From the IMG/VR virus record IMGVR_UViG_3300027833_000132, positions 1 to 34,199 of that record: a stretch of 34,199 nt of DNA. One strand, given 5' to 3'. Made by a program: the position numbers and the translations under genes. This document shows positions 2,366-27,500 of this stretch, piece after piece. Position 1 is the stretch's first letter. Every line of letters begins with the position of its first letter. This stretch comes from a virus. Under the pieces are notes generated by a model. That model was not told the DNA's origin. It worked only from the letters and a program-made list of their open reading frames with translations, and made no database searches.

Positions 2366-3316
2366 ATGAATACAGGAACCTTTTTATCTTTACTGAAACA
2401 AATTATATCTCTATTAGAGGATGGTTCAATCTTGAACTATGGTAAGAAATTTTCAAGTCTTACTATTACCTCCTACAGACAAGTTTACAATCAAATGTCT
2501 AATTATAAGTTTAACTTCAATATAGAAAGTTTAGACCTAAACAATGTTACTAACAGAAAGGATAGACTTAAGGTCACCCGAAATTTACAGACTCATGTAA
2601 ATAAATATTTGAATATGATGTTAGACGATTGTAAACATCACAACACAAGAAAGACACATTTAAAAATTATAAGAACTACTTTAAAGAAGGCAGAGAATTA
2701 TTATGGCTATTTGTTTCCTAAGTTACAAAGCATGAGAGAGTTGCAAACAGAAGTCATTGCTTTAGATCCTAAGCAAGTTGACTTAATACATAACAACAAT
2801 CCAGGAATCGAACTCGAAGATGTATGGTATTATACAAGACTAATGCTGTATTCTTGTATGAGGGTTAGTGATTTAGTGAATTTTCAAGCCTCATCAGATG
2901 ATAGTGTGGTTACTATTATAACAAAAAAAGGAGTCGGAGCAATATCTTCTTTTTATTTACCAAAAGATGTTCGTGTATTTCTTGAGGGAAAAGGTTCTTT
3001 TGCTCATTCACAACAACATTTTAGAGTAAGACTAAAGACACTACTTAAATCATATAAAGAATTACACGAAAAGAAAATTATCTACACATATGATCATAAT
3101 GGAAATCCTATTCATGAGGAAAAGTTTTTATATGACATCATAACACCACATAAATTAAGGGCAAGTGGAATAACTTATCATCTTTCAAAAGGTTTGAGTG
3201 AGATAGAGGCACGAAATATTAGTGGTCACTCCAATGGCTCTACTGCATTTTATAGGTACGTAAAACACTCTAATACAGACTCTATAGAAAAACAAAAACA
3301 ATATTCAATCGAATAG
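2366..3316 (+). CDS. Tyrosine recombinase (316 aa)
   Basis: The C-terminal half carries the catalytic set of the tyrosine recombinase/integrase family. These are Arg166 in SCMRVSDLV, His262 and Arg265 in PHKLRASG, His288 in SGHSNGSTAF, and the probable nucleophile Tyr296 in FYRYV (Tyr298 is the alternative). Residues about 1-130 are helical, as expected for the SAM-like core-binding domain. The length is typical of XerC/XerD-type or simple phage recombinases. All catalytic positions look intact, unlike the second recombinase at 10339. It lies within the replication operon, not next to an obvious attachment site, but is bracketed by two exact GGTGTTCAACC repeats. Possible roles are genome resolution, inversion or excision of a segment, or a second integration system. 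Confidence 0.85.
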   Translation: MNTGTFLSLLKQIISLLEDGSILNYGKKFSSLTITSYRQVYNQMSNYKFNFNIESLDLNNVTNRKDRLKVTRNLQTHVNKYLNMMLDDCKHHNTRKTHLKIIRTTLKKAENYYGYLFPKLQSMRELQTEVIALDPKQVDLIHNNNPGIELEDVWYYTRLMLYSCMRVSDLVNFQASSDDSVVTIITKKGVGAISSFYLPKDVRVFLEGKGSFAHSQQHFRVRLKTLLKSYKELHEKKIIYTYDHNGNPIHEEKFLYDIITPHKLRASGITYHLSKGLSEIEARNISGHSNGSTAFYRYVKHSNTDSIEKQKQYSIE

Positions 3317-10319: not shown

Positions 10320-10339
10320 AGGGACCAAATTAGGGACTA
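10320..10339 (+). repeat. GGGAC-type direct repeat, right copy at the integrase start
   Basis: The form AGGGAC-C-AAATT-A-GGGAC-TA repeats 10064-10083 with three transitions. The last base is the A of the integrase ATG, so a protein bound here would cover the translation start region and could repress integrase. Paired GGGAC boxes just upstream of integrase genes are, from memory, seen in other Bacteroidota elements. Confidence 0.6.
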
Positions 10340-11610
10340 TGGCTTTATCAATTGGAATAAGAAACGAAACTAATAAAGATGGAACTACACTATTACATGT
10401 TCGTTTTAAAAATAAACAGTTTGATAAAAAGATTTACACTCAAATAAAAGTATTAAAAAAACATTGGGATATAAAGAACAAAAGACTGAAACGTAACCAT
10501 CCCTTTTTTGAATTAAAAAACAAAGAAATAAGAGATCTAAATAATATTGTTGAAGATCTCTATATTCAAAGTGTTGTGTCTGCATTATCGTTTGAAGAAG
10601 CGAGAACTAGATTAACTAGTGGTTCTTATGTAAATAATATTGACTCTTACTTAGATCGTTATCTTAAAAGTCAAATGAAGGAAACAACCTTCTCTACTTA
10701 CAAAGGTAAAATGAGGTCGATTGCATTTAATTTTGGTATTAAAAACTTGACGTTTGAAGATATATGCAATAAAAATAATTGGTTAAAACTTAAGCAATTA
10801 CTTAATGAAAAAGGCAGAAGTCCACAAACATTTAATTCTTATAAGAAGGCTGCTAAAGGGGTTCATGGACATGCAGTAAAAGATGAAATTACTTATACTG
10901 TTTTTCCACACGTAAGAACTAATACTATAAATAATTACACCCCACAATGGATTAGATCAGACGAGTTGATTGAAGTCATTAATAATTTAGATACTGAAGA
11001 TAGAATGTTTAAAAACAACGGACTATGTATTTTAATTTATTTAATGATGTTCTCAATGAGAGGAATGTATTCAAAGGATATCGAAAAACTATCAATGAAA
11101 TCATTTGTGAATTCTACATACGACAACACATCAGAATTTAAGTTTGGGGAAAATAATATGGTTTACAAGCACTTTAGATCAAAAACTAATAAAATGGGTT
11201 TAGTATACATGGGATTAAATCCAATAAAAGACATAATAAAGTCAATAAACTACATCATTAATCCAGAGGTTAAATCTATTTTTCCTGTTGGAGGAGGTGA
11301 TAGTGTTATGAATTTTTTCTGGAAGTCTGAAGCAAGAAGGTTTAAAAAACTTACTAATCACAATTACAAATCAGCAAGAAAAGCATTTAATACAACAGCA
11401 TCTATACTTAGCGTTCCCGATGCTGATATTAGAGAACTTATGTTTCAAGGTGATAACACCATTTCAAAACATTACAAGGATACTCAAGCACCACTGATGT
11501 TAGAAAAGTATACAAAGTTCCACTCCGATATTTTAAAAAAATACAGAGTTTCTGAAATATTTACAATGTTAATTGATAAACTAAATAAAAACGGTATTGC
11601 TACTTCTTGA
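10339..11610 (+). CDS. int: Phage integrase (tyrosine recombinase, 423 aa)
   Basis: The layout matches the long integrases of Bacteroidota elements. Residues about 1-90 form an arm-DNA-binding-type domain (SIGIRNETNKDGTTLLHVRF, then KKHWDIKNKRLKRNHP). Residues about 105-190 form a SAM-like core-binding domain (YLKSQMKETTFSTYKGKMR). The catalytic domain has Arg241 in FSMRGMYSKDI, a lysine strand FRSKTNKMGLVYM, Arg347 in NYKSARKAF, and Tyr379 in SKHYKD as nucleophile. Two usually conserved histidines appear replaced: HxxR reads KSAR (Lys344) and the GH box reads GD (Asp372). The arm domain and the repeat-rich DNA just upstream make this the likely prophage integrase. The gene's end overlaps the convergent holin gene by 11 bases. 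Confidence 0.8.
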   Translation: MALSIGIRNETNKDGTTLLHVRFKNKQFDKKIYTQIKVLKKHWDIKNKRLKRNHPFFELKNKEIRDLNNIVEDLYIQSVVSALSFEEARTRLTSGSYVNNIDSYLDRYLKSQMKETTFSTYKGKMRSIAFNFGIKNLTFEDICNKNNWLKLKQLLNEKGRSPQTFNSYKKAAKGVHGHAVKDEITYTVFPHVRTNTINNYTPQWIRSDELIEVINNLDTEDRMFKNNGLCILIYLMMFSMRGMYSKDIEKLSMKSFVNSTYDNTSEFKFGENNMVYKHFRSKTNKMGLVYMGLNPIKDIIKSINYIINPEVKSIFPVGGGDSVMNFFWKSEARRFKKLTNHNYKSARKAFNTTASILSVPDADIRELMFQGDNTISKHYKDTQAPLMLEKYTKFHSDILKKYRVSEIFTMLIDKLNKNGIATS

Positions 11611-12061
11611 TTGAGTTATACTTTTCAAAACCTCTACTTCCAAAATATGCTACATAAATTGTAACTAAAAGTGTCTTTAAAAGTTCTACCCAACTTTCGT
11701 CAATTTCAAATGCAATATTTAAACTGTCTAGGATGATGTATAAAGACGTAATAACTGTTAAATAAATCAATGTCAAAGGACGTGTGTTTTTCGACAGCCA
11801 TGAGTCTGATTTCATATCTGAGTCCCATCTTTTACTAACTTCTTGTAATTCTATTTGATCCAATTCTAAAAGTTTTAGTGCTTTTTCTTTATCTTCTGGA
11901 GGTAGTATCTTAGGGTCTTCCTTATCAATTAAGTTTTTTACAATACCCAAAACTCCAGAACTAGGCAATAAATCACCTACGACATCTGCAATTTTTGATC
12001 CGCTTCCAAGTAAGAACTTCCCTACTTTAGTGTCTTTAAATTTCTTTTTTGGTTTACTCAT
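11600..12061 (-). CDS. Holin-like membrane protein (153 aa)
   Basis: The soluble N-terminal 85 residues include KFLLGSGSKIADVVGDLLP and a long helix (DKEKALKLLELDQIELQEV). They are followed by DSWLSKNTRPLTLIYLTV and two hydrophobic segments, LTLIYLTVITSLYIILDSL and LLKTLLVTIYVAYFG, then a basic tail GFEKYNSIKK. This W..K..RP plus membrane-pair pattern resembles the 3-TM holin family first described for gene-transfer-agent release (PF11351). A holin would open the inner membrane so the neighbouring amidase reaches peptidoglycan. It is the last gene of the late operon, overlapping the upstream small gene by 8 bases and the convergent integrase gene by 11. Confidence 0.65.
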   Translation of the reverse strand: MSKPKKKFKDTKVGKFLLGSGSKIADVVGDLLPSSGVLGIVKNLIDKEDPKILPPEDKEKALKLLELDQIELQEVSKRWDSDMKSDSWLSKNTRPLTLIYLTVITSLYIILDSLNIAFEIDESWVELLKTLLVTIYVAYFGSRGFEKYNSIKK

Positions 12062-12221
12062 CTCCTTCCCACCATTTAATGTGAATCATTATGAATATTA
12101 TATAAATATTCAACTCAAAGCAATCTTCTTCTTCATCAGGTGTAAAGAATGCCCAACCTAACAATGGACCGATTCTAAACCTTTCTGATATTGCTACAAC
12201 GTAGCCTAAATTATCGAACAT
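12054..12221 (-). CDS. Small hydrophobic protein of the lysis cassette (55 aa)
   Basis: The frame is open from 12338, but that would overlap the amidase gene by 128 bases. ATG 12221 gives an 11-base overlap and a protein beginning MFDNLGYVVAISERFRIGP. It has an acidic centre (PDEEEDCFE) and a very hydrophobic segment LNIYIIFIMIHIKWW. Similar 50-60 aa proteins recur beside lysis genes in Bacteroidota phages, from memory. Wedged between amidase and holin genes, it may be a membrane lysis accessory, such as an antiholin or spanin-like component, but no lipobox is seen and the role is inferred. Confidence 0.55.
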   Translation of the reverse strand: MFDNLGYVVAISERFRIGPLLGWAFFTPDEEEDCFELNIYIIFIMIHIKWWEGDE

Positions 12222-12636
12222 ATTTATCTTGTATTGATTTGTATTCTTCTTTTGCGTCATAACTAGGACAGGCTTTTGTAGAGAAATCTCTGTGACCATA
12301 AACCTCTGATCCTGGGTAACTAGCACACAGAAATCCAACCAAGTATTCTAGACTGTCAATTTGAGCATCTGTTCTGGTGTCTTTTGGATTCATATCTGCA
12401 TCACATCCTCCTACATAGGTAATACCTATACTGTATTTGTTATGTCCTTTTACATGAGCACCTGATATATTTATAGGTCGCCCCTGATTAATAGTTCCGT
12501 CAATTTGCACAACATAGTGATAGCCTATTTGTGACCATCCTCTTTGTTTGTGCCATGAGTCAATTTCCTCTACTGATACCGGTCTTCCCTCTGGTGTAGC
12601 AGTACAGTGTACTACAATCTTATTTATTTTTCTCAT
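12211..12636 (-). CDS. N-acetylmuramoyl-L-alanine amidase endolysin (T7 lysozyme-like)
   Basis: This Amidase_2 enzyme cuts the amide bond between N-acetylmuramic acid and L-alanine in peptidoglycan. The zinc ligands are visible as His10 (VVHCTAT), His115 (VYGHRD) and Cys123 (KACPSYD), with catalytic Tyr39 (GYHYVV) and Lys121. All five are offset by exactly seven residues from the T7 lysozyme positions (17, 122, 130, 46, 128), strong support for the assignment. There is no signal peptide, so it depends on a holin. The start overlaps the end of the 2652-aa gene by four bases (ATGA). Confidence 0.92.
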   Translation of the reverse strand: MRKINKIVVHCTATPEGRPVSVEEIDSWHKQRGWSQIGYHYVVQIDGTINQGRPINISGAHVKGHNKYSIGITYVGGCDADMNPKDTRTDAQIDSLEYLVGFLCASYPGSEVYGHRDFSTKACPSYDAKEEYKSIQDKYVR

Positions 12637-15600
12637 TTTTTTAATTTCTTGTAACCATCATAATAAAACAAATCATAAAGAGTATTATCTCTTGCCTCTT
12701 TCTTTAAATCTCTAACAGCCAGACCTAATTCTTCTCCTTTAAGATTTCTTAGATAACTTGAGTTTTCTCTTAATATTTTACCCACTGCTTTAGCGGACTC
12801 TATTTTATAAACTTGATATTCATCGTCTTTTAAATATCTTTCCTCTTCTAAATCATAATCTTCAATTTTTCTGTTAGATGCACTTCCAACATACACACCT
12901 TCACCAACAAAGTGTTTTGCTAAAGGATCTCCTTTTTCTCCCCATGTAAAGTCTAATGGAATAAGTTTTTGACCCTGTTCTGGAATTATAGGGTCTCCAT
13001 AATTATCTACCATATCGTAAAGACCAGAGTTTGCTATAGGAATATCTCTGTATAACTGATCTATTGCACCTGTAAGAGTTCCATTTCTCCTTGCTTTTAT
13101 AGGGTCATCCATGATTTCCATGTAACCTCTCACTAGTTGTTTGTGAAAATTAGGCATTGCAACAGCATTTAAAACTCCGAAAGTTTTGTTTGCAATTGCT
13201 TTTGCGGGATCATCTGAGTTTAAAATTCTACCAAGATCTGATAGTCCTTGTAGCCATGATTGTTGCAACATACTCATAGCGGTAGTTAATGTTACATAAG
13301 AGAATAAATCTGCGTTACCTTCTCCATCTATTGAGTTACCATATTTATCACTTTCATAAAGGGTTCCTGCGGCTGCAAGAATAAAATATAGTGGGTGATC
13401 TTGATATGAAAAACTTGCGTCTCCTATGGTCACTGTAAAAGGTTTCCATCCTGCTTTTTTTAACTCATATTTTTTATTAAAGTCTCTTGGACCGGATGCT
13501 GATATTTTAAGAACTGCATCTTCGTCATCTGCATGAGTCATAAGATATCCAACTAATCCCATTAAAGTAGAAAAACCCATAGAAGCCTTTATATATAAAT
13601 CGGCTTTTTCTTCTGAGGATAGAATTCTTGTTTTACCACTTGCCATTCTTACCTTACCTCTGGCTGCGGTAACTGCTCCAATAGGTGTATAATGTAAAAA
13701 CCTATTAAATACATTTGTTAATACTCTAGCAAATGGTATAAACGTAGTCATTACAGGACCAACATAATCCATCTGTCTTGATTGCACTATAAAATTATAC
13801 AAGTAACTCAACCCACCTTCTGGTTCGTAATTAAATGTTGTCTTTGCAGCAAAGTCCTCTGATTGTCCCTGAACAGTCATGTCTCTATTAGCCTCCATTA
13901 ATTCATGAACACGAATCTTAAACTGAGTCGTTCCGTCTTTGTAGTTTTCTAATCTTGCTTCTGCTTTTGCTCTTTCTAAAGACTCTTTTGGAGGATTTAT
14001 AATTGTTTCTGCTCTTTTTATGTCTTCTGGTGTTGCATTCTTTCCATTCTTTATTCTATAGGCAAGTGCTCTTGCTTGCATTTCTTTTGCAGAATGAAAA
14101 AACAATTGATCTCCTGCAACCATTGCTCTTTGAACATATTTTAAAAAGTTCGGAGACCAAGGAAGAAATTTAGAATTTAAAAGCCAATCTGCATTGTCTG
14201 TTACTTTTTTAGGTAAAAGTTTACCTATAACAGTATTGTTAGTACTAAACCTCCACCACTCTAGCAAAGTTGGGTTATCAAACTTATTTGATTTATCTGA
14301 TTTAACTCCTGTTTCTAAAATATGTTTTGCATTTAACCAACCTTTACTAAGTCCTTTTATCATCCCTAATGGTGCTTGAAAAATCGCAGCAGGGTTTCCT
14401 TTTATTCCTTCTCTTAATGACGTAACAAACAACTCATTACTGATAGACATTACATTTGCAAATATGTTTTTTATCTGAGTTGGTACACCTGATAATATAC
14501 TTGCATAAAAATATGCCACAAACACATCCTTAAAATTAGACCCTAGTAAATTCTGAATGTATTTATACTCAAGAGCCATTGCCTCAGATTTTGGCAAACC
14601 TTCTGCTGCATCTTCAGAATTATTTTTAAGTCTTTTTAACTCAGTTTCTTCATCTTTTGTTAATGGTTGTTTGCCCGCTTCTTTTAACTTTTTATTTACT
14701 AAGGAAACTGTTCTATCTGCACTTAATGCTTTTAGCAAACTAAACGCTTGAATAAATCGACCTGCTTTAGTTCCCTCTTTTGATATCTGCTCTACAATAT
14801 TATTTATAGATGCTGAAATCAAGTTAGCCTCAGAATCTTTACCTTCTGTCCTTAGTTTTTGAATTTCTGCTTCTAACGCTGTTATAACTTTATTAGTTAA
14901 AGCAATTCTAACTTCTGGAAGTAGCCAATCAGGATTAGACTTTATTATAACCACTGAATCCTCTAACCCTAATTTCTCAAACATAAAGTCCGCTTCAGCC
15001 TGAGTTATATTATTTCTCTTTGGGATATAAGTTTTTGCTTCGTCTGAAATCTGCTCAAATGTTTCTTCACTTAATACTTGTTCAAGTCTACTTGTATATT
15101 TTCTTTTTTCGGATCTAGGAGAATCTTCTGGAACTTTTCCTGTGTACATTTCACCTAATTCTTTTACAGAAATATCTGGAAATCTTTGGTTGAAATATTG
15201 TACAATCTCTCCTTCAGTAAATTTACCAAGTTGTTTAAATTTTGTTATAGCATCATATACCTGTTTTTTATTTGTGTCTCCATCTAGTTGAAAGGACAAT
15301 CCAGGGTTTTCTGATTTATTTAATATTCTTACGGGTGCATACGTTAATCCTACAGTTGTAGGTAGTATTTGAATGTAAGATCTTGCCTTACCATCTTTTT
15401 TTCTTGGTCTTCCTATTTCAATATTTGTATCAGTTTCTGGATCAGCGGTATGATCTCTCCAGTCTTTTCTGTCTTTTAATATATGTAATTTAGTTCTTGA
15501 ATTAGTTTTTTTAGGATCAACACCTATTGCTTTCGGATATGACTCATGTGCATCAGATTTAAATGTTTCTAATTTAGTGTCAATTTCTACTACAGCATAA

Positions 15601-18600
15601 ATCTTATTAGTTTCGGATTCACCTCTAAGTAATGGCTCACCTAACATGTATGATACAGCAGCAGTTAAATTGGCTTTAGAAATTCTTCCACCTGTACCTT
15701 TCATTTGATCATAACCAATTGTATCTTTAAAAAATTTAAATACCTGTGCATTGGTTTTAGTTGTTTTATCAGACTTAATAAACTTCATTTTACCTTTAGC
15801 ATCTAAGGCTTTAGGATTTACATTTTTTGAAAGCCTATCTAAAAAAGACTGAACAAAGAATTTTCTATCTTCAAAAGAGGATTTATCGTTTGCTAGTTTA
15901 GTTCTAATTAACTTTAAATTATCCTCAACTGATGACCTGTTTTTTGTATCTGCTCTAAGTCCTGTAATTTTATCAATCATCACAAACTTACCTTTTACTT
16001 TTATAGGGTTTCCTTCTTTATCTTTTTTCTTAGTCTTTTTAGTTGTAGTATCATTTGCAGCATTTACCAATGCTCTATTTACTTGTGTTTTATTTAAACC
16101 TAAACCATCTATAAAAGTTTTAGTTGTAAATATATCAACAACAGCGTTAGAGGCTGTAGTAGAGGAAAGAAGTTTGCTTGGTTTAGCAGTTACTAATCCC
16201 ATGTATATTTTACCATCTGGATTCTTTTTAAGAGATTCATTTAGTGTCTTTACTAGTGAGTCAGCACCTGATTCAGTCGAAGCCCAGAAAAAACCTTTTT
16301 CATGAAACTTTATAGGATAGTACATACCACCCTTTCCCTCTACAATTATTTCACCATTTTTAGCACTTATTTGACCAGAGAACGCAAAATCTGGAGTATG
16401 CAAAACCATATGCTTGTCTGCAAAATACTCAAGTTCTTTGTCTCTTGTGATATCTCCAAAGGCTTCTAATAATTTAAACTTTTTCCCATTCTTGTCATAT
16501 GAATACAGAAGTCCTGTTTGTGGATCTAAAAAGTTTGCTTGGAACAATAATGTTTGTCCATTATCATCTACCTTAACTTCAGGCTCTACCTTAGATTCTG
16601 TTGATACGATTTTTTCTCCTGTTAGTATCTCTGTACTAGCAAGTTCTATAAATTCTCTTAGAGTAAGGTTTTCTATATCACCTTCACTTTTTACATTAAA
16701 TTTGTTTTTAATAAAATCAAAAAACTCTTTTATCCAATTATCCCAAATACCTTGGGCTTCTTGACTTTCAAATATCTTAGCCCCACGTTGACCAATAGCA
16801 ATCGCTAATGCTTCATCTAATATCTTATCCTCTGTATATACTTTTTGTAAATCAGGGTCTTGTGCTATTTGTTTTCTTAAATTTTTAACTATATCACTAT
16901 CACCAATCAGAGACATACCTTTGTCCCACAATTCTTTTCTTTCTTGCTTTGCTAATCTTGTCCACACATGACCAAACTCATGGATAGGTGTATCCTTGTT
17001 TGCTGTTTTAGGATTTATTAATACCCTGTTATTTGTGGCATCAAATACACCTCTTGCAGTTTTGGCTCCTTCTGGTGACACACCTTGAGATAGGGCTAAA
17101 TCTTCTACCGCTTTTGAATCTACAACCACCTCAACACCAGGAAAGTTTTCTTTCAATCTTTTTACTAATGGTGTTAAATAATCTCCATCTGCTTTGGCTG
17201 TTGTCACCTCTTCTTTAGTGAATAAAGGTTTTGGATTAGTTACTTGGTCTCCCTTAACTTTTGGATTAGAGTTGGGTGTAATAATTTGACTAGAATCTAC
17301 CTTCCTTCCATCACCAAAAATATTTGCATAAGCAGGAGCGTTTGCAATTATATCCTTAGCGTCTTTCTTGCTATTAGCATCAACATTTTCACCAGTAACC
17401 TTATTAGATACAATCCACGCACCGGCATCAATACCCATTTCTTTTCCGTCTCTGTTGTCTATAATTTCAAAATCCTTAGACCAAGTTTTCTTGTCGGTCT
17501 TATTCATTTTATAAACAACCTCCCCTTGACTTTCAGCATCAGTCTTAGAGTTAGGTGCTACATCCATGCCTGCTTCTTTACGCTGACGATCAGACATTCT
17601 AGATTCTAACTTAGGATTTATTACAGTCTTAATATCTACCTCTTCAGTGCTTTTAACATCTCCTTCTGTACTAACACTAACATAATCTTCGTTTGTGAGT
17701 GTGTTATCTTTTGAAACTGTTTCCCTAAAAAAAACAGCACCTTTTTCATCTGAAATTTGCACCTTCCTGCTACCATCGAGTTGAGTGGTTACTGTAGCAA
17801 TGTTTGTTTCCCCATTACCATCTTCATATGTAATCTTTTGTTGCGATACAGGTACTTGAGAGTCTTTATATCTTTCTTCTTTTGTTTCTGTTTTCTGGTC
17901 ACCCTTTACTTTTGGGTCTGGCTTTACAGTTCCATTTAATTCTAATTCAGAATCGTTATCTAAAAAAGAATCCATTTCTGATTTTCTCTCTTCAGTTAGT
18001 TCTGTAGGCACTGAACTTTCACCTTCAGTTTTTGGTTCTACTTTAGGCTGTTTCTTATTATTTTCTAGTTCTTCAGCAATAGCGTCATTAGTGAGGGCAT
18101 ACTGTGCCTCTAATACTTTCATCAACGCAGGGTTTCCTTCTGCATTGTCCATTAATCTTTTTATATTATTAGAACTCTGAAACAAACTAAGTAATTTAGA
18201 TTCTGATTCTTCACTTAATTTATTTGTAGATAGTTTAGCCGCATCTAATTGCGTAAACAAATTTGAAAACTCTGCTTTTTTTGATTCGGCTTGTTCTTTT
18301 GTATAATAATACGTGTTGCCGCTTTCAGGATCTATGTATTGTTTACCTACTAAGTTATCTAGTCTTTCAAAGAATTTTTCTTTTGCTTTATACGAAGCGT
18401 ATGTTGCTTGTTGCTGTAAAGATGACTGAGTTGTAATATTCATTGGACCTGTTGAAGTTCCTGCTGCAAGACCAAATATTCCTGACTCTTCTATTTCTCC
18501 CCTAGACCATTTAATTTCAAATGATTTTTCAGGCGACATTACTTGGTTAAATCCACCACGAACTGCATTAACAGCAGGTATTTCTGCTAATTCTTCAAGG

Positions 18601-20591
18601 AATTCTCTTTTCCCTGCACCAAAAACCTCTTTCATAGCATACCTAAATGCTGTTTTTTTAGATTCTTTACCTCCTTGTGCTAAATACGCAATGTATCTTT
18701 CTGTTAATTTTGAGGCTGCTTTTTTTTCACCGATCAAATAGAACTGTGGATTTATCTGAGCCACTGCTGCAACAGCAAGAGATCCAGTAACTGCAAAAGC
18801 AGAGGCTTCAGCAGGTGTCATACCTTGTCTTATTGCCTCCCCATAAAGTTGGTTGTGAGTCTGTCCAGTTACAGCACCAGTTAGTGCAATTCTGTTTGCT
18901 ACAGTAGATTTACTTAAGTAGTTACCTGCTCTTGTTAATCCTGATCCTTTTGCTAGTGCTCCTGTTGCTTTAACTCCAGTACCTAATCCTTTTGTCCCAA
19001 ACATTAATACACCTAAGTCAGCCATAACTCCAACAAATTTTGGTAAGGCTCCTTCTAGATTGTATTGTTGTTCTGATACATACTCCTCTGGGTTTGCTTC
19101 GTACTTTTCTATTACTTGTTTAACTATTTCATTGTCTTGAACTAAATACCCATCCTTATCTCTAACTGTTTTTGCTGACCTGTACTCAGCACCTATATTG
19201 TCATCAACAACTAATTGATAATCATCAACCATAGCAACCCTTTCAGATAATCCTCTATCCTTATTACTAGATTGTCCAAGTTGAGCAACCATGTTTGGGT
19301 TTTTTTCTTTGCTAAATATTCTCTCTGATGCTTCTGCTAATGAATCTGTCCATCCATATTCGTCATTAAATGAAAGAGTTCTAGGAAGAGATAGTATATC
19401 ATTTACTCCCTTAGCAAGTGATGATACTATTGGTTTTGATATATTGTTTTTAAACCATTTTGGCTGTGGCATTTGTCCAGGAATTTCTGCGTCTGGAAGG
19501 TCATACTTATCCTTCATATCCACATATGCTTGAGCACTCTTTAGGTTTTTTTGATTCTCAACCCACTCAGGGTTTCTAGTATCAAAATTTTCACTTACAT
19601 CTCTAACATGACCTAATATGTTTATTGCTCTTTGATAGTTCTTAAATTCAGGTAAACTGTTTAGTTTAGAGAACCTTTCTTGCATATCTTCATATGAACC
19701 GTACTTGTATATTTTGTTTGATACACCTGTTTGTGTAGGTTTGTTAGACTTATAGTCTGCACCCTCGGACATTATATCATTTATTTCATCTATAAGGTCT
19801 TGTTTCCTTGTTGGATCAGTTTCTGTACCAAGTTGATCTTGTAGTATTTTTATTTCTTTTCCTTGGGAATTAAGTTGATTTATTAAAAATCCATATTCAT
19901 CTCCATAATCTTTCCAGACTTGACTATTTTCAGTATCATCTACAACAGAAAACATATCCTCTGAAAGAAAGTTAATTGCTTTCTGCTCAAAGTCTCCTTT
20001 AGCAACACCAGTTAATTTATCATTATTATAATCTAATTGACTAGCAAACAATTCATTTCCTGATGCATTAGAGTAGTTTCTTAAAACATCATAAAAATCT
20101 GCTTTTTGAGTTACTAAGTCAGAAGTAGTTGCTGCTGCAACTTTTGCTCTTTCTAATGATGCTTGTTTTTTTGCTTCTTCTTTTTTTGACTTGTTAGAGT
20201 CTATTATTGCTTGGGTTCTAGGACTTACTCTTCTTGAATTTCCTCCAGGTCCAGTACCTCCAGATAGTTTTGGATTGCTCGATTTTCTTGCAATATCTGT
20301 TGTTTGATCTACAAAAGTAGAAGATGAAGCATTAAATCTAGGTAAGTTATCTGCACTTTCAGGAATATTATTTATACTTAACTTAGGAGCATCTTGAAAT
20401 TTATCAGCATTGAACTGATCATAGTTATCATAACCCCAAACAGATTTAGCATTATCACCTAAATTATTAAATACTTTTTTTCTGTATTCACCAGATTGCA
20501 TTTGAAACTTAAACTCATCATAAGTTCTTTTTTGAGGACCATATATTTGCCCTATTTTTTCCCAGGCTGCAAGTAACTCTTTGTCTTCCAT
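12633..20591 (-). CDS. Giant polyvalent internal virion protein with zinc-protease motif (2652 aa)
   Basis: At almost 8 kb this is the largest gene. The first 500 residues are polar and helical. About 513-620 are glycine/alanine-rich and hydrophobic (MADLGVLMFGTKGLGTGVKA). About 850-1100 are low-complexity linkers with a repeated PKVKGDQ. HEFGH at 1204-1208, with DEALA (Glu1260) downstream, forms a gluzincin-type HExxH...E zinc site. Residues 1400-1750 form a globular region, followed by helices. About 2010-2050 and 2330-2350 are membrane-like, and GWKPFTVTIGDASFSYQDHP near 2380 is typical of large phage internal proteins. Such polyvalent proteins are packed in the capsid and ejected into the host, where protease and other domains may act. 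Location between tail and lysis genes supports this. Exact enzymatic functions are inferred. Confidence 0.7.
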   Translation of the reverse strand: MEDKELLAAWEKIGQIYGPQKRTYDEFKFQMQSGEYRKKVFNNLGDNAKSVWGYDNYDQFNADKFQDAPKLSINNIPESADNLPRFNASSSTFVDQTTDIARKSSNPKLSGGTGPGGNSRRVSPRTQAIIDSNKSKKEEAKKQASLERAKVAAATTSDLVTQKADFYDVLRNYSNASGNELFASQLDYNNDKLTGVAKGDFEQKAINFLSEDMFSVVDDTENSQVWKDYGDEYGFLINQLNSQGKEIKILQDQLGTETDPTRKQDLIDEINDIMSEGADYKSNKPTQTGVSNKIYKYGSYEDMQERFSKLNSLPEFKNYQRAINILGHVRDVSENFDTRNPEWVENQKNLKSAQAYVDMKDKYDLPDAEIPGQMPQPKWFKNNISKPIVSSLAKGVNDILSLPRTLSFNDEYGWTDSLAEASERIFSKEKNPNMVAQLGQSSNKDRGLSERVAMVDDYQLVVDDNIGAEYRSAKTVRDKDGYLVQDNEIVKQVIEKYEANPEEYVSEQQYNLEGALPKFVGVMADLGVLMFGTKGLGTGVKATGALAKGSGLTRAGNYLSKSTVANRIALTGAVTGQTHNQLYGEAIRQGMTPAEASAFAVTGSLAVAAVAQINPQFYLIGEKKAASKLTERYIAYLAQGGKESKKTAFRYAMKEVFGAGKREFLEELAEIPAVNAVRGGFNQVMSPEKSFEIKWSRGEIEESGIFGLAAGTSTGPMNITTQSSLQQQATYASYKAKEKFFERLDNLVGKQYIDPESGNTYYYTKEQAESKKAEFSNLFTQLDAAKLSTNKLSEESESKLLSLFQSSNNIKRLMDNAEGNPALMKVLEAQYALTNDAIAEELENNKKQPKVEPKTEGESSVPTELTEERKSEMDSFLDNDSELELNGTVKPDPKVKGDQKTETKEERYKDSQVPVSQQKITYEDGNGETNIATVTTQLDGSRKVQISDEKGAVFFRETVSKDNTLTNEDYVSVSTEGDVKSTEEVDIKTVINPKLESRMSDRQRKEAGMDVAPNSKTDAESQGEVVYKMNKTDKKTWSKDFEIIDNRDGKEMGIDAGAWIVSNKVTGENVDANSKKDAKDIIANAPAYANIFGDGRKVDSSQIITPNSNPKVKGDQVTNPKPLFTKEEVTTAKADGDYLTPLVKRLKENFPGVEVVVDSKAVEDLALSQGVSPEGAKTARGVFDATNNRVLINPKTANKDTPIHEFGHVWTRLAKQERKELWDKGMSLIGDSDIVKNLRKQIAQDPDLQKVYTEDKILDEALAIAIGQRGAKIFESQEAQGIWDNWIKEFFDFIKNKFNVKSEGDIENLTLREFIELASTEILTGEKIVSTESKVEPEVKVDDNGQTLLFQANFLDPQTGLLYSYDKNGKKFKLLEAFGDITRDKELEYFADKHMVLHTPDFAFSGQISAKNGEIIVEGKGGMYYPIKFHEKGFFWASTESGADSLVKTLNESLKKNPDGKIYMGLVTAKPSKLLSSTTASNAVVDIFTTKTFIDGLGLNKTQVNRALVNAANDTTTKKTKKKDKEGNPIKVKGKFVMIDKITGLRADTKNRSSVEDNLKLIRTKLANDKSSFEDRKFFVQSFLDRLSKNVNPKALDAKGKMKFIKSDKTTKTNAQVFKFFKDTIGYDQMKGTGGRISKANLTAAVSYMLGEPLLRGESETNKIYAVVEIDTKLETFKSDAHESYPKAIGVDPKKTNSRTKLHILKDRKDWRDHTADPETDTNIEIGRPRKKDGKARSYIQILPTTVGLTYAPVRILNKSENPGLSFQLDGDTNKKQVYDAITKFKQLGKFTEGEIVQYFNQRFPDISVKELGEMYTGKVPEDSPRSEKRKYTSRLEQVLSEETFEQISDEAKTYIPKRNNITQAEADFMFEKLGLEDSVVIIKSNPDWLLPEVRIALTNKVITALEAEIQKLRTEGKDSEANLISASINNIVEQISKEGTKAGRFIQAFSLLKALSADRTVSLVNKKLKEAGKQPLTKDEETELKRLKNNSEDAAEGLPKSEAMALEYKYIQNLLGSNFKDVFVAYFYASILSGVPTQIKNIFANVMSISNELFVTSLREGIKGNPAAIFQAPLGMIKGLSKGWLNAKHILETGVKSDKSNKFDNPTLLEWWRFSTNNTVIGKLLPKKVTDNADWLLNSKFLPWSPNFLKYVQRAMVAGDQLFFHSAKEMQARALAYRIKNGKNATPEDIKRAETIINPPKESLERAKAEARLENYKDGTTQFKIRVHELMEANRDMTVQGQSEDFAAKTTFNYEPEGGLSYLYNFIVQSRQMDYVGPVMTTFIPFARVLTNVFNRFLHYTPIGAVTAARGKVRMASGKTRILSSEEKADLYIKASMGFSTLMGLVGYLMTHADDEDAVLKISASGPRDFNKKYELKKAGWKPFTVTIGDASFSYQDHPLYFILAAAGTLYESDKYGNSIDGEGNADLFSYVTLTTAMSMLQQSWLQGLSDLGRILNSDDPAKAIANKTFGVLNAVAMPNFHKQLVRGYMEIMDDPIKARRNGTLTGAIDQLYRDIPIANSGLYDMVDNYGDPIIPEQGQKLIPLDFTWGEKGDPLAKHFVGEGVYVGSASNRKIEDYDLEEERYLKDDEYQVYKIESAKAVGKILRENSSYLRNLKGEELGLAVRDLKKEARDNTLYDLFYYDGYKKLKK

Positions 20592-20600
20592 GTCTTGTTT

Positions 20601-22382
20601 TTATTCAGTTGGTTGTCCCAATACTAGTATTCTCATCTTATCCTGGCTAATTGTTTTATCAGATCCGTCATTAAATCTTACCACAAACTTATCTCGCCCT
20701 GATCCTAAACCTCTAACACCTGTTTTTATAGATTTTATTGTTTTTGTCGTACTAACACCAGGTACTACTTGTCCAGACCATGATGTATTTAATGCCTTGC
20801 TCATTTCAGTTACATTATCATAATTCTGATTGTCATTATTCATTTGTTCAATAGAAAATCCTTCTATTTGAGCCAACGCTGAACCTGCTGTTTTTTGTTG
20901 ATTTCTTTCATTACTAGCATTTTCATCAGTCAATTGATACTTTTGATACTTAGTACCTGCTAGTGATTGGTTTGCAGGTGACCATTTTCCAGACTGTGCT
21001 TCAGCAGAAGTCAACTCAGAAATATTTTTAGTTGTTGTACCGTCTGTAACCGTTTGTCTGATATTAAATGATTTCGATGTATTATTGTATTCAGGTAGAC
21101 TATTAGCATCTTTCATATCAAACCCATTACCTGCACTTGAAGCCATAATCATTAAGTCATTAAATTGACTCTCGTCATATCTAACAACTCCACGACCTGT
21201 ATCTATGTAAAGTGCATCTTCGTTTATTGGTCTAAATATTTTAGTAGCAGGTCTACCTGGTGATTTTCCAATACCTGGAATAAGTTTAATATCTTTGAAC
21301 TGACTAGTTACATCAAACCCTTCTAATTTAGTATTCTGAAACATCATATATTCTTTAGATGTTTTTCCAATAATTGATTGATCACCTAGTAGTGCTCTAC
21401 TGATTTGTGTTGCTATAAGTGATGACGGATTTGGTTTATTGTTAGAACCACCACCATCAGTTGGTAGTGCACTTTCTCTTTTTTGAGATATACTTGCGTA
21501 GTCAGGAATTACTTTCTTCATTTGGTCTAAAACAAACTCTTTTTGAAATTTTAATTCATCGGCTTTTTCTTCTTCATCGGTTCTTGTTTTACCTACAAGT
21601 TTTTTATTTACATAGTTGTCCATCATAGCAACGTGAGCCTTACTAGATGTTCCCCATTTTTCTACTAAGTCCTCTGGTACTTGAGATGCGTCTGTATATA
21701 TAGGCACAGATACACCACTTTTTAGTTTATACATTTGTGTTCTTTCCCCTTGGTAACTACTATTTATCATGGTTTTTACACCACCGATTTCTCCTTCTTT
21801 TGTTTCACCACCACCACCAAACTTATACTTACCTAGTAACTCAACAAAATCCTCTCTTACAACATCTTCATTTATATTTTTTGTAGATTTTAAATAACCT
21901 TGGTAGGCTTTATTCATTCCTGGAGAATCCAAATCTAAAGAAGTGTTGTCTTCTAATAAAGCAAAGAAAGCATCCTTAGAATAGTATTTTTTATCTTCAT
22001 CTCCCTCAAACGCAGCACTAGTTCTTTCTAGTAGTTTAGTTACCTGTGCTTGTTTTTGTACGGTCATCCCCAACTCAGCGTTAGCCTCATTTAAAACCTT
22101 AGAATAGTTCTTTCCGTTTGGATTCATTTCAGTCATCCTGTCCAATGCTGCCTCAACTTGAGTAACCATATCGTCAGAAAAATGTCCTGAAACAATACCA
22201 TCTCTTAAAAGTTGTGCTTGTTGAAACTTTGTAGCCTTGTTTCTATTTGTTTGAGCAATAGAACCTTTTATCGCTGAATCTAATAACGCATCTCCTGAAT
22301 TATCATACCCATCAATACTTGATTTCCCTCCAAAATCTGGAGTTGTTTTGGCTCCCATTAAACCCGGAGTGAATTTTGCCAT
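20601..22382 (-). CDS. Putative internal virion/ejection protein (593 aa)
   Basis: The protein begins MAKFTPGLMGAKTTPDFGGK and is polar, with long helical stretches (KATKFQQAQLLRDGIVSG, then QVEAALDRMTEMNPNG) and a more beta-rich C-terminal half. There is no signal peptide or obvious membrane span. Its place between a glycine-rich ejection-type protein and the giant polyvalent protein, with only short gaps, parallels the T7 gp14-gp15-gp16 order of internal core proteins. The function is therefore inferred from synteny; no catalytic motif is seen. Confidence 0.55.
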   Translation of the reverse strand: MAKFTPGLMGAKTTPDFGGKSSIDGYDNSGDALLDSAIKGSIAQTNRNKATKFQQAQLLRDGIVSGHFSDDMVTQVEAALDRMTEMNPNGKNYSKVLNEANAELGMTVQKQAQVTKLLERTSAAFEGDEDKKYYSKDAFFALLEDNTSLDLDSPGMNKAYQGYLKSTKNINEDVVREDFVELLGKYKFGGGGETKEGEIGGVKTMINSSYQGERTQMYKLKSGVSVPIYTDASQVPEDLVEKWGTSSKAHVAMMDNYVNKKLVGKTRTDEEEKADELKFQKEFVLDQMKKVIPDYASISQKRESALPTDGGGSNNKPNPSSLIATQISRALLGDQSIIGKTSKEYMMFQNTKLEGFDVTSQFKDIKLIPGIGKSPGRPATKIFRPINEDALYIDTGRGVVRYDESQFNDLMIMASSAGNGFDMKDANSLPEYNNTSKSFNIRQTVTDGTTTKNISELTSAEAQSGKWSPANQSLAGTKYQKYQLTDENASNERNQQKTAGSALAQIEGFSIEQMNNDNQNYDNVTEMSKALNTSWSGQVVPGVSTTKTIKSIKTGVRGLGSGRDKFVVRFNDGSDKTISQDKMRILVLGQPTE

Positions 22383-22402: not shown

Positions 22403-23005
22403 TTATTTAAAAAAATTTCCTGAAAGACCTGCTGCATTACCTGCTGTACCTAAGTTTGTCATACCTGCACCCATGGCTTTCATTCCACCTGTAATCATTT
22501 GTCTAGATGCGTTATTATTGTCCATTGTCATCTTTACTTTTTGATTATATGGATCTAATTCATTTAACTTAAACGCTTGATCTCTGAAGCCTGCTAGGTT
22601 TGATAACGCTTCGGACATTCCCTCACGTCTCGCTGATCTTTCTTGTGCTCCAGACACCCTGGCTTTCATCAAAGCATCTTGGGATTGTGCGTCTGCTGAA
22701 GCACCAACAGCCAACATATCTTCTAGTGAACCTGAAGATGACTGCACTCTATTTAAAGAATTTGCTTTATCTGTATTAATGTTATTGACTAAATCTTGTT
22801 GCTCATCTAAACGAGCATTTACAAGGTTTCGTCTCATTTCAACGTCTTGACCAACTTCCTTTGGTATCTCGTACTTTGGTCTTTGGGCTATAAGGTCATC
22901 AATTTCTCTTTGTCGTTTCTTTTTACCAAAAAGACCTTGACCCATTGATATTAATCCGCCTAATGCTTGCGTTCCCGCACCAATCATTCCTGCTGTTATT
23001 GCCAT
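22403..23005 (-). CDS. Putative ejection protein with glycine-rich N terminus (200 aa)
   Basis: The N terminus, MAITAGMIGAGTQALGGLIS, is glycine-rich and hydrophobic, followed by GKKKRQREIDDLIAQRP, long helices with many Gln and Arg (VNARLDEQQDLVNNINTDK), and a glycine-rich hydrophobic C terminus (MITGGMKAMGAGMTNLGTAG). This sandwich is typical of small internal virion proteins such as T7 gp14, which insert in the host outer membrane at DNA entry. It lies just before two larger putative internal proteins in the late operon. Assignment rests on composition and order. Confidence 0.55.
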   Translation of the reverse strand: MAITAGMIGAGTQALGGLISMGQGLFGKKKRQREIDDLIAQRPKYEIPKEVGQDVEMRRNLVNARLDEQQDLVNNINTDKANSLNRVQSSSGSLEDMLAVGASADAQSQDALMKARVSGAQERSARREGMSEALSNLAGFRDQAFKLNELDPYNQKVKMTMDNNNASRQMITGGMKAMGAGMTNLGTAGNAAGLSGNFFK

Positions 23006-23017
23006 ATTATTTATTTT

Positions 23018-24514
23018 TTAAGTTGTATGTCCTTTACTAGTTATAAACCCAATGTTAGAATGTTTAACCTCTAAGTCCTCTTGTCTAAAAGCCATAAACA
23101 CCTTTATATATTGTCCTCTTAATTTTGTTCCTCTCATCAATCTGTCTCCATATGTAGAGTTTTCACCTACATTCGGGTCGTTTGTATCCCCAAACATTTC
23201 TGAATAATAAGTGCCCTCTTTTCTAACATAATCATTAGTGTTTAGATCACTATTCATTGTCCAGTTATCAATTGTTTCAAATCTCGAAATTGTTGGACTT
23301 GCATTTCCTTCTACAGAATGTGTCATAAACACTTTAGGCTGAGATGGTTGTACATTCTCTACATACGATATTTGTGTAGGATATTTACCGTTGTAAAAAT
23401 AATTCTTATTATTGGAATCATCATGAATATATAACTGTCCCTTTACAAAGGAAGCAAAGGTTGTTTTATGTGTAGAAAAGTATTCTGGAGTAAATGAGTA
23501 TCTACTAACCCATCTCTGTGCCGCTTCACTCCATGCTATTGTTGTTCTACTTCCTGTTTTTATAACCTCAGCAATTTCTTCAACTTTTTTAAATACCCTA
23601 ACGTTTGTTTGCCATGTATAATTACCTGCATTACTATTTGAATAGTTAAAAGATATTTTTGGATTAGATCCATGAGCAGAAGTTATTGTCAACTCAACAC
23701 CTGAGTTAGAATATCCAGATGCTAAATTATTTTGTGATAATATATTTGTATCTGCATACCCTAATGTAATATCTAAATCTGCCTGAGCAGTTGTAGCGGT
23801 GTCAGAGTCAACTATTTTGTATATAATACCACCACCAAATATATCTCCAACAGAAACATTATCTGTGGTTGTCTGACTTCTAACTGCTCTAACTCTAAAA
23901 TTATGATGTTTTTCTCTACCAAACTGTGCCCCTCCCCCAGAATTAGGATTAAAAGACATACTAAAAACTGGTGTTCTTATTTGCAAATAACTTGCTTCAA
24001 GTGAAGCCCAGTAATTTTTTACAATAGCCCAAACATGATTTTTTCTAAGTTTTGAACCTCCGTTATTTGCGATAATAGGGTCTAATACAGACATTAAATT
24101 ATATAAAAGATATAACTCATAAACCGTAGGTAGATACCAATCATTATATGTTACTCCATCTACAGTTCTAGATATATCTGATGCAATCTTAGCGGCAGAC
24201 GATACGTGGTTTGTTTGGTTTATTATTTGAGTAGTATTGTATGCCCCATCTGTACTTGAAGCCCCCGCATAATAATTTTCATTAGTTTCACCATTACTTC
24301 CACTAACATTACTCCAATGAATGTTTTCTGATTTAATTGTTTGATAATCACCGCTTGTTATGTTTTCCTCTGCAACAGAATGAGGAGTTCCTTCCTGTAA
24401 ATCAACAATATACACTGTTTTATCTGTGGTAGTAGGAACCTCATTACTAATATCAAAAACTATCTTGATTTCGTCACCTGGTTTAAAGTCTGTATCTATA
24501 GTAAAATTGCTCAT
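23018..24514 (-). CDS. Tail protein with DUF1566/Lcl lectin-like domain (498 aa)
   Basis: Residues about 95-215 match the DUF1566 (Lcl) pattern: DWYLPTVYELYLLY at 125-138, YWASLE at 168-173 and FRVRAVRS at 206-213. This fold is related to the C-type-lectin/FGE group used as adhesins, including phage receptor-binding proteins. A GDIFGGGIIYKI segment at 223-234, which usually comes before the WYLP core in such proteins, here comes after it. The remaining 260 residues are beta-rich (SFNYSNSNAGNYTWQTNVRV). It follows the giant tail protein gene and probably lies at the tail tip or on a fibre, contacting the host. No reverse transcriptase or template repeat is seen nearby. Confidence 0.65.
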   Translation of the reverse strand: MSNFTIDTDFKPGDEIKIVFDISNEVPTTTDKTVYIVDLQEGTPHSVAEENITSGDYQTIKSENIHWSNVSGSNGETNENYYAGASSTDGAYNTTQIINQTNHVSSAAKIASDISRTVDGVTYNDWYLPTVYELYLLYNLMSVLDPIIANNGGSKLRKNHVWAIVKNYWASLEASYLQIRTPVFSMSFNPNSGGGAQFGREKHHNFRVRAVRSQTTTDNVSVGDIFGGGIIYKIVDSDTATTAQADLDITLGYADTNILSQNNLASGYSNSGVELTITSAHGSNPKISFNYSNSNAGNYTWQTNVRVFKKVEEIAEVIKTGSRTTIAWSEAAQRWVSRYSFTPEYFSTHKTTFASFVKGQLYIHDDSNNKNYFYNGKYPTQISYVENVQPSQPKVFMTHSVEGNASPTISRFETIDNWTMNSDLNTNDYVRKEGTYYSEMFGDTNDPNVGENSTYGDRLMRGTKLRGQYIKVFMAFRQEDLEVKHSNIGFITSKGHTT

Positions 24515-24519
24515 ATTTT

Positions 24520-27500
24520 TTATGGATTATAATTCGATGATGGTTGGCTTACGCTTCCGACTATACTTACAGGTGTTGATTGACCAGTTGCATTTGAAAT
24601 TCCACTGAAACCACTTGCTTTAAAAGTTATAGTTCTGGATCCTCCTAAAAAGTTTCCTGGAACATATACTTGAACAGAATCTATAGTTTGAGTATTTGTA
24701 AAAGCAACATCCACATCTTCTGATTCAATAATCATATTACTTACATCCATAACAATAGTTATCTGTCCTGATGCACTACCAGTCGTTTGGCTTTTACTAA
24801 CGTCTATCTGAACATAACCTCCATTACCTGATACTGAATTACTCTGTAATGTAAATCCTCCAATTCCAAAAGACGTGTCTTCTACTGTATAATTATAAAC
24901 AGTTCCGTAAGAAGTTCCAATATCATTTTTAGCGTATGCTCTCCAATAATACGTTGCTCCTTCTGCTAATAATCCTACACTAGCCTGATAATTGTATGGG
25001 AATGATGATATTGATGTTTGTGATGCGGTGATAGTGGTAACACCAGACTCACCAATTGTTGGAGTAGTATCAGAAATACTATGAACAAACCCTCTTTGAG
25101 TTATACCATTTGTACCTGCTGTAGAACCTCCGTTAGAAGTTATCGATCCATTGTAAACTCCTTGTGCTGATTTATAAAGACCTGTAACTACGGTTGGTGC
25201 TGTATTAGTTGACGATCCTGTTGACTGACTACTCACAGAACTATATCTTGTTCCAAAATTAGAAATCAAATATGTTTTAGCGTATACTGTTGTATCTGCA
25301 CTAAGACCTGTAATACTATGAGATATACTTGTAGTGTCACCCGTTATAACTTGTTTGGTCACCCCAGATGCTCCAATAACTGGATTTGTATCCGTTGTAG
25401 AGTAAACAAAACCAAACTCAGTTGCAGTTTCTCTATTTAAACTTATTGATGAATTTAATTCTATTCCTGTTGAAGTAATATTATCAAAATCTACAATTGA
25501 AATAACTGCTTTTTTTAACGGTCTTGAGTCCATGACAACACTGTCTATATCTTCAGTAATTCCTTGTATAACAATATTAAATGATCCAGGTTGGTAACCG
25601 ACTACAGAACCAGATTCCTGTATTTCTGTAGCAGATGTTCCTATTCTACTTGATGAAATATCACTACATACTCCTAAAGAGCACTCTGTAAAGTTAGTGG
25701 TGTTGTTATTCGAGTTTCCGAACTGCCATGGTACACTTGAGGAACATGCAATTGTTGCAGACCCATTTGATAAAGAAATTTCTTTCTCTTCAAACATCGG
25801 AAAAGTTCCTGTAGATGCTCCCGTAACTCTTATTGGAGTATTACCATCAGTTTGGGATCCATATAAATAAGATGTATCGTTTTGATAATTAACAACATTT
25901 GACACTATGATATCTCCAGTGTTAGATTGTATTTCTCTTGTTAATTGAATTTGAATAACACTGACATCACCAAATACGTTTGATATTGTTAACGAACCTG
26001 TTCCTGCTAAAAACTCACCCTCTGAGTTTGTGCTAAAACCTCCACTACTAGCGTTTACTACTGAAATTGTAGACCCAGAAGGTGATATAACTACATTAGA
26101 CGGTATTGTAAATGTGTACGGACTTGTAAAACTAAATGAACCGACTCCATCAATAACAGTCATCTCATTTATTATACTCCATGGTTTTATGATTGAAACT
26201 GACACTACTTTTGAAGTAGGCTGATCACCTGTATTTATAATATCTATTATAGGCTCATCTGGATAGTAAGGATCTTCTTGCAATACTACAACTGTCTCAC
26301 CTGTTTTAGGTAAACTTAAAATATACTCTGAGTTATAACCATCGTAAGTTCCTATAACAAAACTATTTAAACTGTCTGAAGTAATAATGTCAGACTTCTC
26401 CTTAAAATAAGTCTTCATTTTTACATCTCCAATCGCTGTTAAGCCATTAGTGTTATATTTGACTACGGTTTGGTTTTTTACATCAAACCAAAAAGCACTA
26501 CCCTCATTGATTGCAACTGACTCAGGATGTTTAGTTCCGTAAGAACCTTTTAAAGTATTTATTGTACCTATAACACCTGATGAAACTGCCAAAAACTGTC
26601 CACCACTTGATGACTGCTGTAGTTGTTGCTCTCCTAAGTAAATACTAGATGTTTCGTTTTCTGATATGGCTAACATTACTGTACCAGTTGACTGAGTTTT
26701 GCTAGTAACTTTTAATGACCTTAACGGTCCCGTTGCATCGTCTAACCTCTTCTCATCTAAAGCACTAAACTTAGATAAACCATTTATTTTACTACCTGGT
26801 ATTTTTGTTTCACTGAACACGATACCAGTAGTTTTTATTTGACTACTAACCTCTGAAGGTACTAGATTTGGTTTACCTGTTATTTGAATCCAGTTTAAGA
26901 AATAATCAGTACTAGGATTCATAGACTCTGCCGCATATAAATACTCATCAGGTAGATCAACTAGAATATCATTATTAGTATCCACCTTTGCCTCAGCGTC
27001 AGTGTTTTGAGTTAAGTCAGATTTCACAATCATATTGACTAAAGTTCCATCTGATTGGCTTACTTGAGTTGGGGTATTGTTATTGAACTCCGAATCAAGT
27101 ATGTACATTTTATTCTTACCATTATCACCTGTAGCATCAATTGTGCTTCTTCTAAAAAATATATGACCATCATTATGTACAGCACAAATTTTTTCTCCAA
27201 AATCACTTTCCCAAAACAATTCTTCTATTGTTGCAAAGTTTTTTGTTACCTCAGATTGTTCCATTGTTACGGTCCACTCATGATGTACATCTCCTCCTGC
27301 TAGCCATGTTTTATCTTGATACTCTTTATGATGTACTTTTACTTTACTCCCTGCTTGTATAACACCATTTGGCGGAGATAAATAATGTGAGTATGTTTTA
27401 CTGTTTACATTACCTAACCCTGCTCCGGATGTTTTACAATTAATAGCCCATTTATCATTTAAAGTGTGACCCGTTGTTGAATTAAACTGTACAGTTAATC

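Follow-up and report, generated by a model that had tools for sequence, protein, structure and literature searches.

The question raised by the window, by which we mean the whole IMG/VR virus record of 34,199 bases (IMGVR_UViG_3300027833_000132), is what purpose is served by a protein of 2,652 amino acids (aa) that is encoded by one uninterrupted frame on its minus strand (Table 1). We propose, with moderate confidence, that it is a large ejection protein of a marine podovirus, carrying a zincin metallopeptidase that processes its own chain or partner ejection proteins; the host is probably flavobacterial. An earlier reading of the sequence (the original prediction) described this frame as encoding a polyvalent protein with a HEFGH...DEALA zinc-protease site and repeated PKVKGDQ linkers, and these details proved accurate: HEFGH is the sole HExxH in the protein, versus 0.009 expected from composition, DEALA occupies residues 1259-1263, and PKVKGDQ occurs twice, in DNA copies that are similar, not identical. 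Its proposal of membrane-type segments did not hold, as the highest 19-residue Kyte-Doolittle means were 1.40 (596), 1.39 (514), and 1.24 (2277), under the value of about 1.6 that is the usual threshold for a transmembrane helix. A membrane-channel role via transmembrane helices gains no support from this hydropathy profile.

Scans of the whole protein against Pfam, PHROG and NCBIfam gave no match over cut-off and no polymerase family, although the DxDxD motif itself was not searched. A match to a curated model does not define polyvalent proteins; the assignment of this protein to them rests on fold and relatives. The zincin model (predicted local distance difference test, pLDDT, 69.8 overall and about 75-85 in the core) has a helix, a three-stranded sheet, the HExxH on one helix and Glu1260 on a later helix; the available part of Iyer et al. 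(PMC5512222) describes polyvalent zincins as a helix, three strands, an HExxH helix and a later Glu helix. Since structure prediction places HEFGH inside a zincin protease fold, the structural objection that the original prediction had anticipated, a motif lying outside such a fold, does not arise. The best solved matches were lethal-factor catalytic domains (Z 8.0, root-mean-square deviation, rmsd, 4.4, 147 residues aligned), and others included PPEP-1 (Z 6.5, rmsd 4.1, 133 aligned) and IrrE (Z 7.0, rmsd 3.2, 88 aligned), with one of the IrrE/PprI structures solved with single-stranded DNA (8sln). A Z of 8 or below is by itself suggestive; motif, ligand and predicted fold agree on a zincin. 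Foldseek against the PDB returned no expectation value (E) under 0.001 for either the zincin model or that of the domain that follows it (the mid domain), and a profile of both domains against PDB sequences had as its best match a designed protein (E 0.044), with IrrE at 0.46. Among the 28 members of our alignment of the two domains (A4), Pfam found Astacin in five (best E 0.0034), Peptidase_M78 in five (0.059), and nothing in the 2,652-aa protein. The zincin profile aligned in register, if weakly, at the HExxH of two known polyvalent proteins, the N4 virion RNA polymerase (vRNAP; 5.0%) and P1 DdrB (8.5%), compared to 0.1-0.4% for five control proteins.

In A4, which comprises relatives from viral contigs and omits 13 of 40 mid-domain loci (duplicates, cut ends, inserts between the domains, reversed order), His1204, Glu1205, His1208, and Glu1260 were present in all 28 sequences, although each row needed an upstream HExxH and hence only Glu1260 is an independent test of conservation. 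The zincin profile matched 50 of the 51 proteins in our family set, a figure that is partly due to selection, as the set was recruited by zincin and mid-domain searches, plus the 2,652-aa protein and that of podovirus ctQWt234. A fairer figure is that all 37 mid-bearing proteins, counting the 2,652-aa protein and some near-duplicates, have a zincin match, which lies upstream of the mid domain in 35. The order is reversed in L068 (mid domain and zincin within aa 868-1213 and 1584-1647) and L069 (aa 586-931 and 1073-1133). A second scan added 15 mid-domain loci; of these, 13 have HExxH upstream, whereas L127 has none in frame and L138 is cut by the contig end. One relative, L032, has two zincin-profile matches in a single protein (aa 659-801 and 1678-1859).

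Other parts of the chain are exchanged between close relatives. Compared to L035, the protein is 86-99% identical throughout except at residues 901-1100 (17-45%), within a variable segment that is flanked on both sides by the PKVKGDQ linkers, and L035 has a 210-aa insertion at 1765 that is absent from the 2,652-aa protein. L038, L039, and L041 have about 200 additional residues near 1336, and the L044 mid domain is ~44% identical with a synonymous divergence (dS) of 1.47, versus 0.15-0.19 for the flanking zincin and C-terminus. The N-terminal region profile scored 44.8% (E 2e-4) against one of the other family groups and 5.8% or less against three. Pfam identified ART-PolyVal in 3 of 15 full-length relatives, LPD23 in two, and C5 methylase, GNAT, SprT-like, and Peptidase_M78 domains in one each; in other scans of near relatives the matches were weak, with DUF3293 in the elemo phages as the one exception. 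Judging from these alignments, wholesale swaps and inserts between near-identical phages around a constant zincin are the pattern of a polyvalent protein, and that designation is further supported by the zincin fold and metal ligands, by the ART-PolyVal, LPD23, C5-methylase, and GNAT domains of the relatives, and by the presence of several unrelated domains (zincin, PUA-like, gp16-type) in one chain.

These exchanges also bear on what the protease would cut. It is possible, if tentative, that the zincin acts as an effector, cutting proteins of the host (RNA polymerase or defense proteins) as soon as it is injected, since its structural matches are effector-like or regulatory zincins, zincin effectors are known from conflict systems (PMC5512222, available part), and the turnover of adjoining segments resembles that of an arms race. 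However, arms-race effectors usually come and go, whereas almost all family members retain the zincin, which is under purifying selection, with a ratio of nonsynonymous to synonymous divergence (dN/dS) of 0.06-0.27 in six comparisons. We favor self-processing over a host-defense target because the zincin is constant while other parts are swapped and, consequently, we do not favor the protease aimed at host defenses of the original prediction, regarding host targets as less probable than an internal role in processing or as a hub. Self-processing by polyvalent zincins has been proposed by Iyer et al., and P1 DdrB is processed, according to the available part of PMC5512222.

Evidence for ejection comes from the C-terminus and the gene order. 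By tblastn, residues 2015-2618 matched podovirus ctQWt234 (Manatee Spring; E 2e-26), where this domain sits in the gene preceding the endolysin, and weaker hits, below threshold at E about 0.5, were internal virion proteins of T7-like cyanophages. An hhalign comparison of eight relatives with six marine gp16 proteins scored 99.3% (E 6e-21) over residues ~2023-2470 (~450 residues), and the cyanophage and pelagic gp16 subsets alone scored 98.5 and 97.5%, respectively; gp14 and gp15 profiles, which served as controls, scored 0.2-0.5%. The single T7 gp16 sequence against the C-terminal profile scored 0.2%, indicating no homology. We therefore consider that, by profile homology, the C-terminus is a relative of the C-terminal domain of marine-branch gp16 and not of T7 gp16, and the gp16 analogy of the original prediction holds for the marine branch but not for T7. 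Against the gp14 and gp15 profiles, the two genes upstream scored at the level of noise, with no homology detected, and the P-SSP7 gp16 annotation is itself "assigned by synteny and size." In a profile comparison the C-terminal domain had no match in the C-terminal region of the elemo-like group, and therefore no single ejection module is common to the family.

The late genes run from ring-like genes through a 1,749-aa tail protein, a muzzle, and two unnamed genes to the 2,652-aa gene, followed by an amidase and a holin. A 62.7-kb relative, G002, has the identical order around its giant gene, and its record also holds a terminase (phrog_6681, 9e-98), a portal (phrog_6547, 1e-90), and an SU10-type capsid gene. 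Its position in the window and in G002 puts the gene last among the structural genes in the late operon of a podovirus, ahead of the lysis genes; a late-operon location had been predicted. The available part of PMC10172136 assigns the muzzle of crassvirus phi-crAss001 a likely gatekeeper role in cargo-protein ejection. We consider it highly improbable that the protein stays behind as part of the tail or head, such as a tape-measure-like or scaffolding protein with no more than a resemblance to polyvalent proteins; the gp16-type C-terminus and gene position argue otherwise, and the ART and methylase domains of its relatives make little sense for a scaffold.

We infer ejection from this C-terminus together with the gene order, and the scheme that we propose, in which packaging, proteolysis, cutting in cis, and nucleic-acid binding are likewise putative, is as follows. 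The gp16-type domain would hold the protein in the head and help first the protein and afterward the DNA to pass along the tail into the host. The chain would bear the zincin along with exchangeable cargo domains, including a PUA-like domain that perhaps binds nucleic acid, and the zincin, either inside the head or soon after entry, would cut its own chain or partner ejection proteins, which would free the cargo domains in the host cytoplasm.

Several points weigh against this scheme, in addition to the negative comparisons with T7 gp16, gp14/gp15, and the elemo-like C-terminus. Homologs in the elemo phages and Gundel_1 carry the annotation "structural protein," which favors the scheme, but no mass-spectrometric origin of these labels turned up in the available text. 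In addition, N4 vRNAP, which also has a zincin-type domain, is packaged unprocessed (PMC5512222, available part), and among the natural variants the zincin match of L030 (aa 2209-2385) reads HQFSH, its catalytic Glu replaced by Gln, that of L034 has no HExxH, and L127 has no HExxH in 2,475 aa. N4 and such variants would also suit a fold that is structural or for packaging only, with no proteolysis, as would the requirement for the zincin-type region in N4 packaging, reported in the same source, and the naming of the HExxH motif in an N4 structure preprint (PMC12633501) whose available part does not show protease activity. We consider this unlikely, however, as HExxH is kept in 46 of the 48 zincin matches uncut by a contig end and Glu1260 is retained in relatives as low as 23% identity.

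The globular region that the original prediction placed at about 1400-1750, with no family it could recognize, corresponds to the mid domain. A model of this domain from 48 sequences (alignment A8) has high confidence (pLDDT 88.7, predicted template modeling score 0.84). It matched no Pfam, PHROG or NCBIfam family and forms a family of its own that occurs at 58 loci in viral contigs, and the elemo group alone gave good E-values among isolated phages. A pattern scan of genome_contigs (84,980 bacterial and archaeal species), a type of scan that overlooks divergent copies, found no mid-domain relative among its 16 pattern matches. A8 consists of 35 rows of alignment A7 and 13 of the 15 second-scan loci (L127 and L138 dropped), A7 being without the near-duplicates L036 and L063 and without L037, L040, L066, and L067 (fragments or duplicates). 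A further set, A9, includes 15 of the 51 proteins, whether full-length or partial.

The 24 best VIA rows for the mid domain were all PUA-like (Z 6.3 to 4.2; the next, at 3.9, was unrelated) and comprised YTHDF1-3, yeast MRB1, VcaM4I, MJECL36, an EVE protein, and EOLA1/CXorf40A, which is of the ASCH type; YTHDF3 superposed with an rmsd of 3.7 over 145 residues. Foldseek alone gave nothing significant (no E below 0.48), mid-domain profiles A8 and A10 against PDB sequences found no solved YTH domain at E 10, the profile of the mid domain yielding no credible match there, and EVE (PF01878) and ASCH (PF04266) had no matches in the window record, with controls found in 7 of 14 and 5 of 14 genomes, respectively. 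Two other candidates, Nup155 (E 0.009 with an N-half mid-domain profile against PDB sequences) and phage ModA ADP-ribosylases (a weak match at E 8-10), were judged to be chance. Trp1436 is invariant (48 of 48), and the segment around it may resemble the YTH base-binding cage. The mid domain is weakly indicated to be PUA-like in predicted shape, with no membership of YTH or EVE by sequence, and may be a nucleic-acid binder. According to the available parts of PMC7641849 and PMC7897488, modified bases are the ligands of EVE and YTH domains, and VcaM4I grips a flipped base between Trp and Tyr.

It is also conceivable, but quite unlikely, that the zincin and PUA-like domains are one unit, a protease that nucleic acid, with modified bases as one candidate signal, would trigger or direct and that would be delivered with the genome. 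This suggestion is based on the co-occurrence of the two domains in 37 of 37 mid-bearing proteins, the IrrE/PprI matches including 8sln, the single SprT-like and Peptidase_M78 domains among 15 relatives, and the invariance of Trp1436. If true, the substrates of the unit would be proteins bound to DNA or RNA, for example RNA polymerase or restriction enzymes.

Like the phage polyvalent proteins of Iyer et al. (2017), such as P1 DdrB and N4 vRNAP, the protein is a very long chain in a late-gene position with a zincin that has HExxH and a later Glu, and its relatives have exchangeable enzymatic domains; unlike them, it has a gp16-type C-terminus and a PUA-like mid domain that is unnamed in the available part of that study. 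With marine T7-like gp16 proteins (P-SSP7, 9515-10a, S-CBP42, HTVC200P, CRP-227) it shares the ~450 homologous C-terminal residues and a position after two smaller genes, as in the gp14/gp15/gp16 block, but it is about twice as long and adds the zincin and mid domain. The mid domain differs from the YTH, EVE, and ASCH domains that account for its best structural matches in its modest Z, the lack of a sequence match, and a helical insertion of ~170 residues. The 3,694-aa structural protein of an elemo phage (QMP85251.1) has both the zincin and mid domain (36% identity over 1143-1721), but with HEIFH in place of HEFGH, other N- and C-terminal parts, and a DUF3293 domain.

While polyvalent proteins are a known kind, the combination of gp16-type, zincin, and PUA-like domains looks new, as it was not found in the available text of the literature searched (including PMC12633501, PMC7886860, and PMC7824862), and a literature search found no paper linking polyvalent protein, YTH, and phage. 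The mid domain appears to be undescribed in the libraries searched. In a single chain the protein would unite the themes of gp16-type ejection and of polyvalent effectors, and it adds a virus-specific domain family (58 contigs) whose predicted shape recalls that of modified-base readers. Where near-identical phages have swapped segments naturally, the swaps mark out the cargo, and the cultured relatives, elemo phages grown on Flavobacterium (laboratory host Flavobacterium sp. BAL314), make protease injection and its targets directly testable.

Table 1. Positions in the window of the giant gene, its segments, and adjacent late genes.
Feature	Position	Strand	Remarks
Whole gene, 2,652 aa	12633..20591	minus	stop codon 12633-12635
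N-terminal region, residues 1-890	17922..20591	minus	kept in near family and L027/L033 (profile search; 86-99% identity to L035)
First PKVKGDQ linker, residues 893-899	17895..17915	minus	alignment and DNA
Variable segment, residues 900-1109	17265..17894	minus	alignment mostly lost versus L035/L038 (16-45% per 100-residue window)
Second PKVKGDQ linker, residues 1110-1116	17244..17264	minus	alignment and DNA
Zincin metallopeptidase domain (predicted), residues 1139-1328	16608..17177	minus	profile (50/51 proteins), model, structural matches
HEFGH, residues 1204-1208	16968..16982	minus	expected zinc ligands His1204, His1208; base Glu1205
Glu1260, expected third zinc ligand	16812..16814	minus	kept in 28/28 (A4)
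Virus-specific mid domain, residues 1346-1766	15294..16556	minus	PUA-like predicted shape; helical insertion at about model residues 130-305
Conserved segment, residues 1771-2014	14550..15281	minus	found also in L030 (profile search)
C-terminal domain, residues 2015-2618	12738..14549	minus	common to podovirus ctQWt234; ~2023-2470 homologous to marine gp16
N-acetylmuramoyl-L-alanine amidase endolysin, next downstream	12211..12636	minus	library scans
Holin	11600..12061	minus	library scan
593-aa gene directly upstream, gp15 position	20601..22382	minus	no detectable gp15 homology
200-aa gene, gp14 position	22403..23005	minus	no detectable gp14 homology
Muzzle-type tail protein	23018..24514	minus	crAss_MUZ_C, E 4e-8 (crassvirus muzzle C-terminal domain)

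Elsewhere in the window, the 1,749-aa tail protein (24520-29769, minus strand) had no Pfam match over cut-off, and by eye its last ~500 residues resemble immunoglobulin/FN3-type repeats. A gene inside the virion block (32351-33034, minus) matched phrog_1574 (E 1e-37, unknown) and phrog_34859 (glycosyltransferase, E 7e-8). Two tyrosine-recombinase-like genes lie on the plus strand at 2366-3316 and 10339-11610 (Phage_integrase E 4e-4, below cut-off; Arm-DNA-bind_5 E 3e-6) and, based on this pair, the phage may be temperate. A small plus-strand gene (1438-2022) encodes a protein with a DnaA C-terminal DNA-binding domain (E 7e-9) that is less than a full DnaA.

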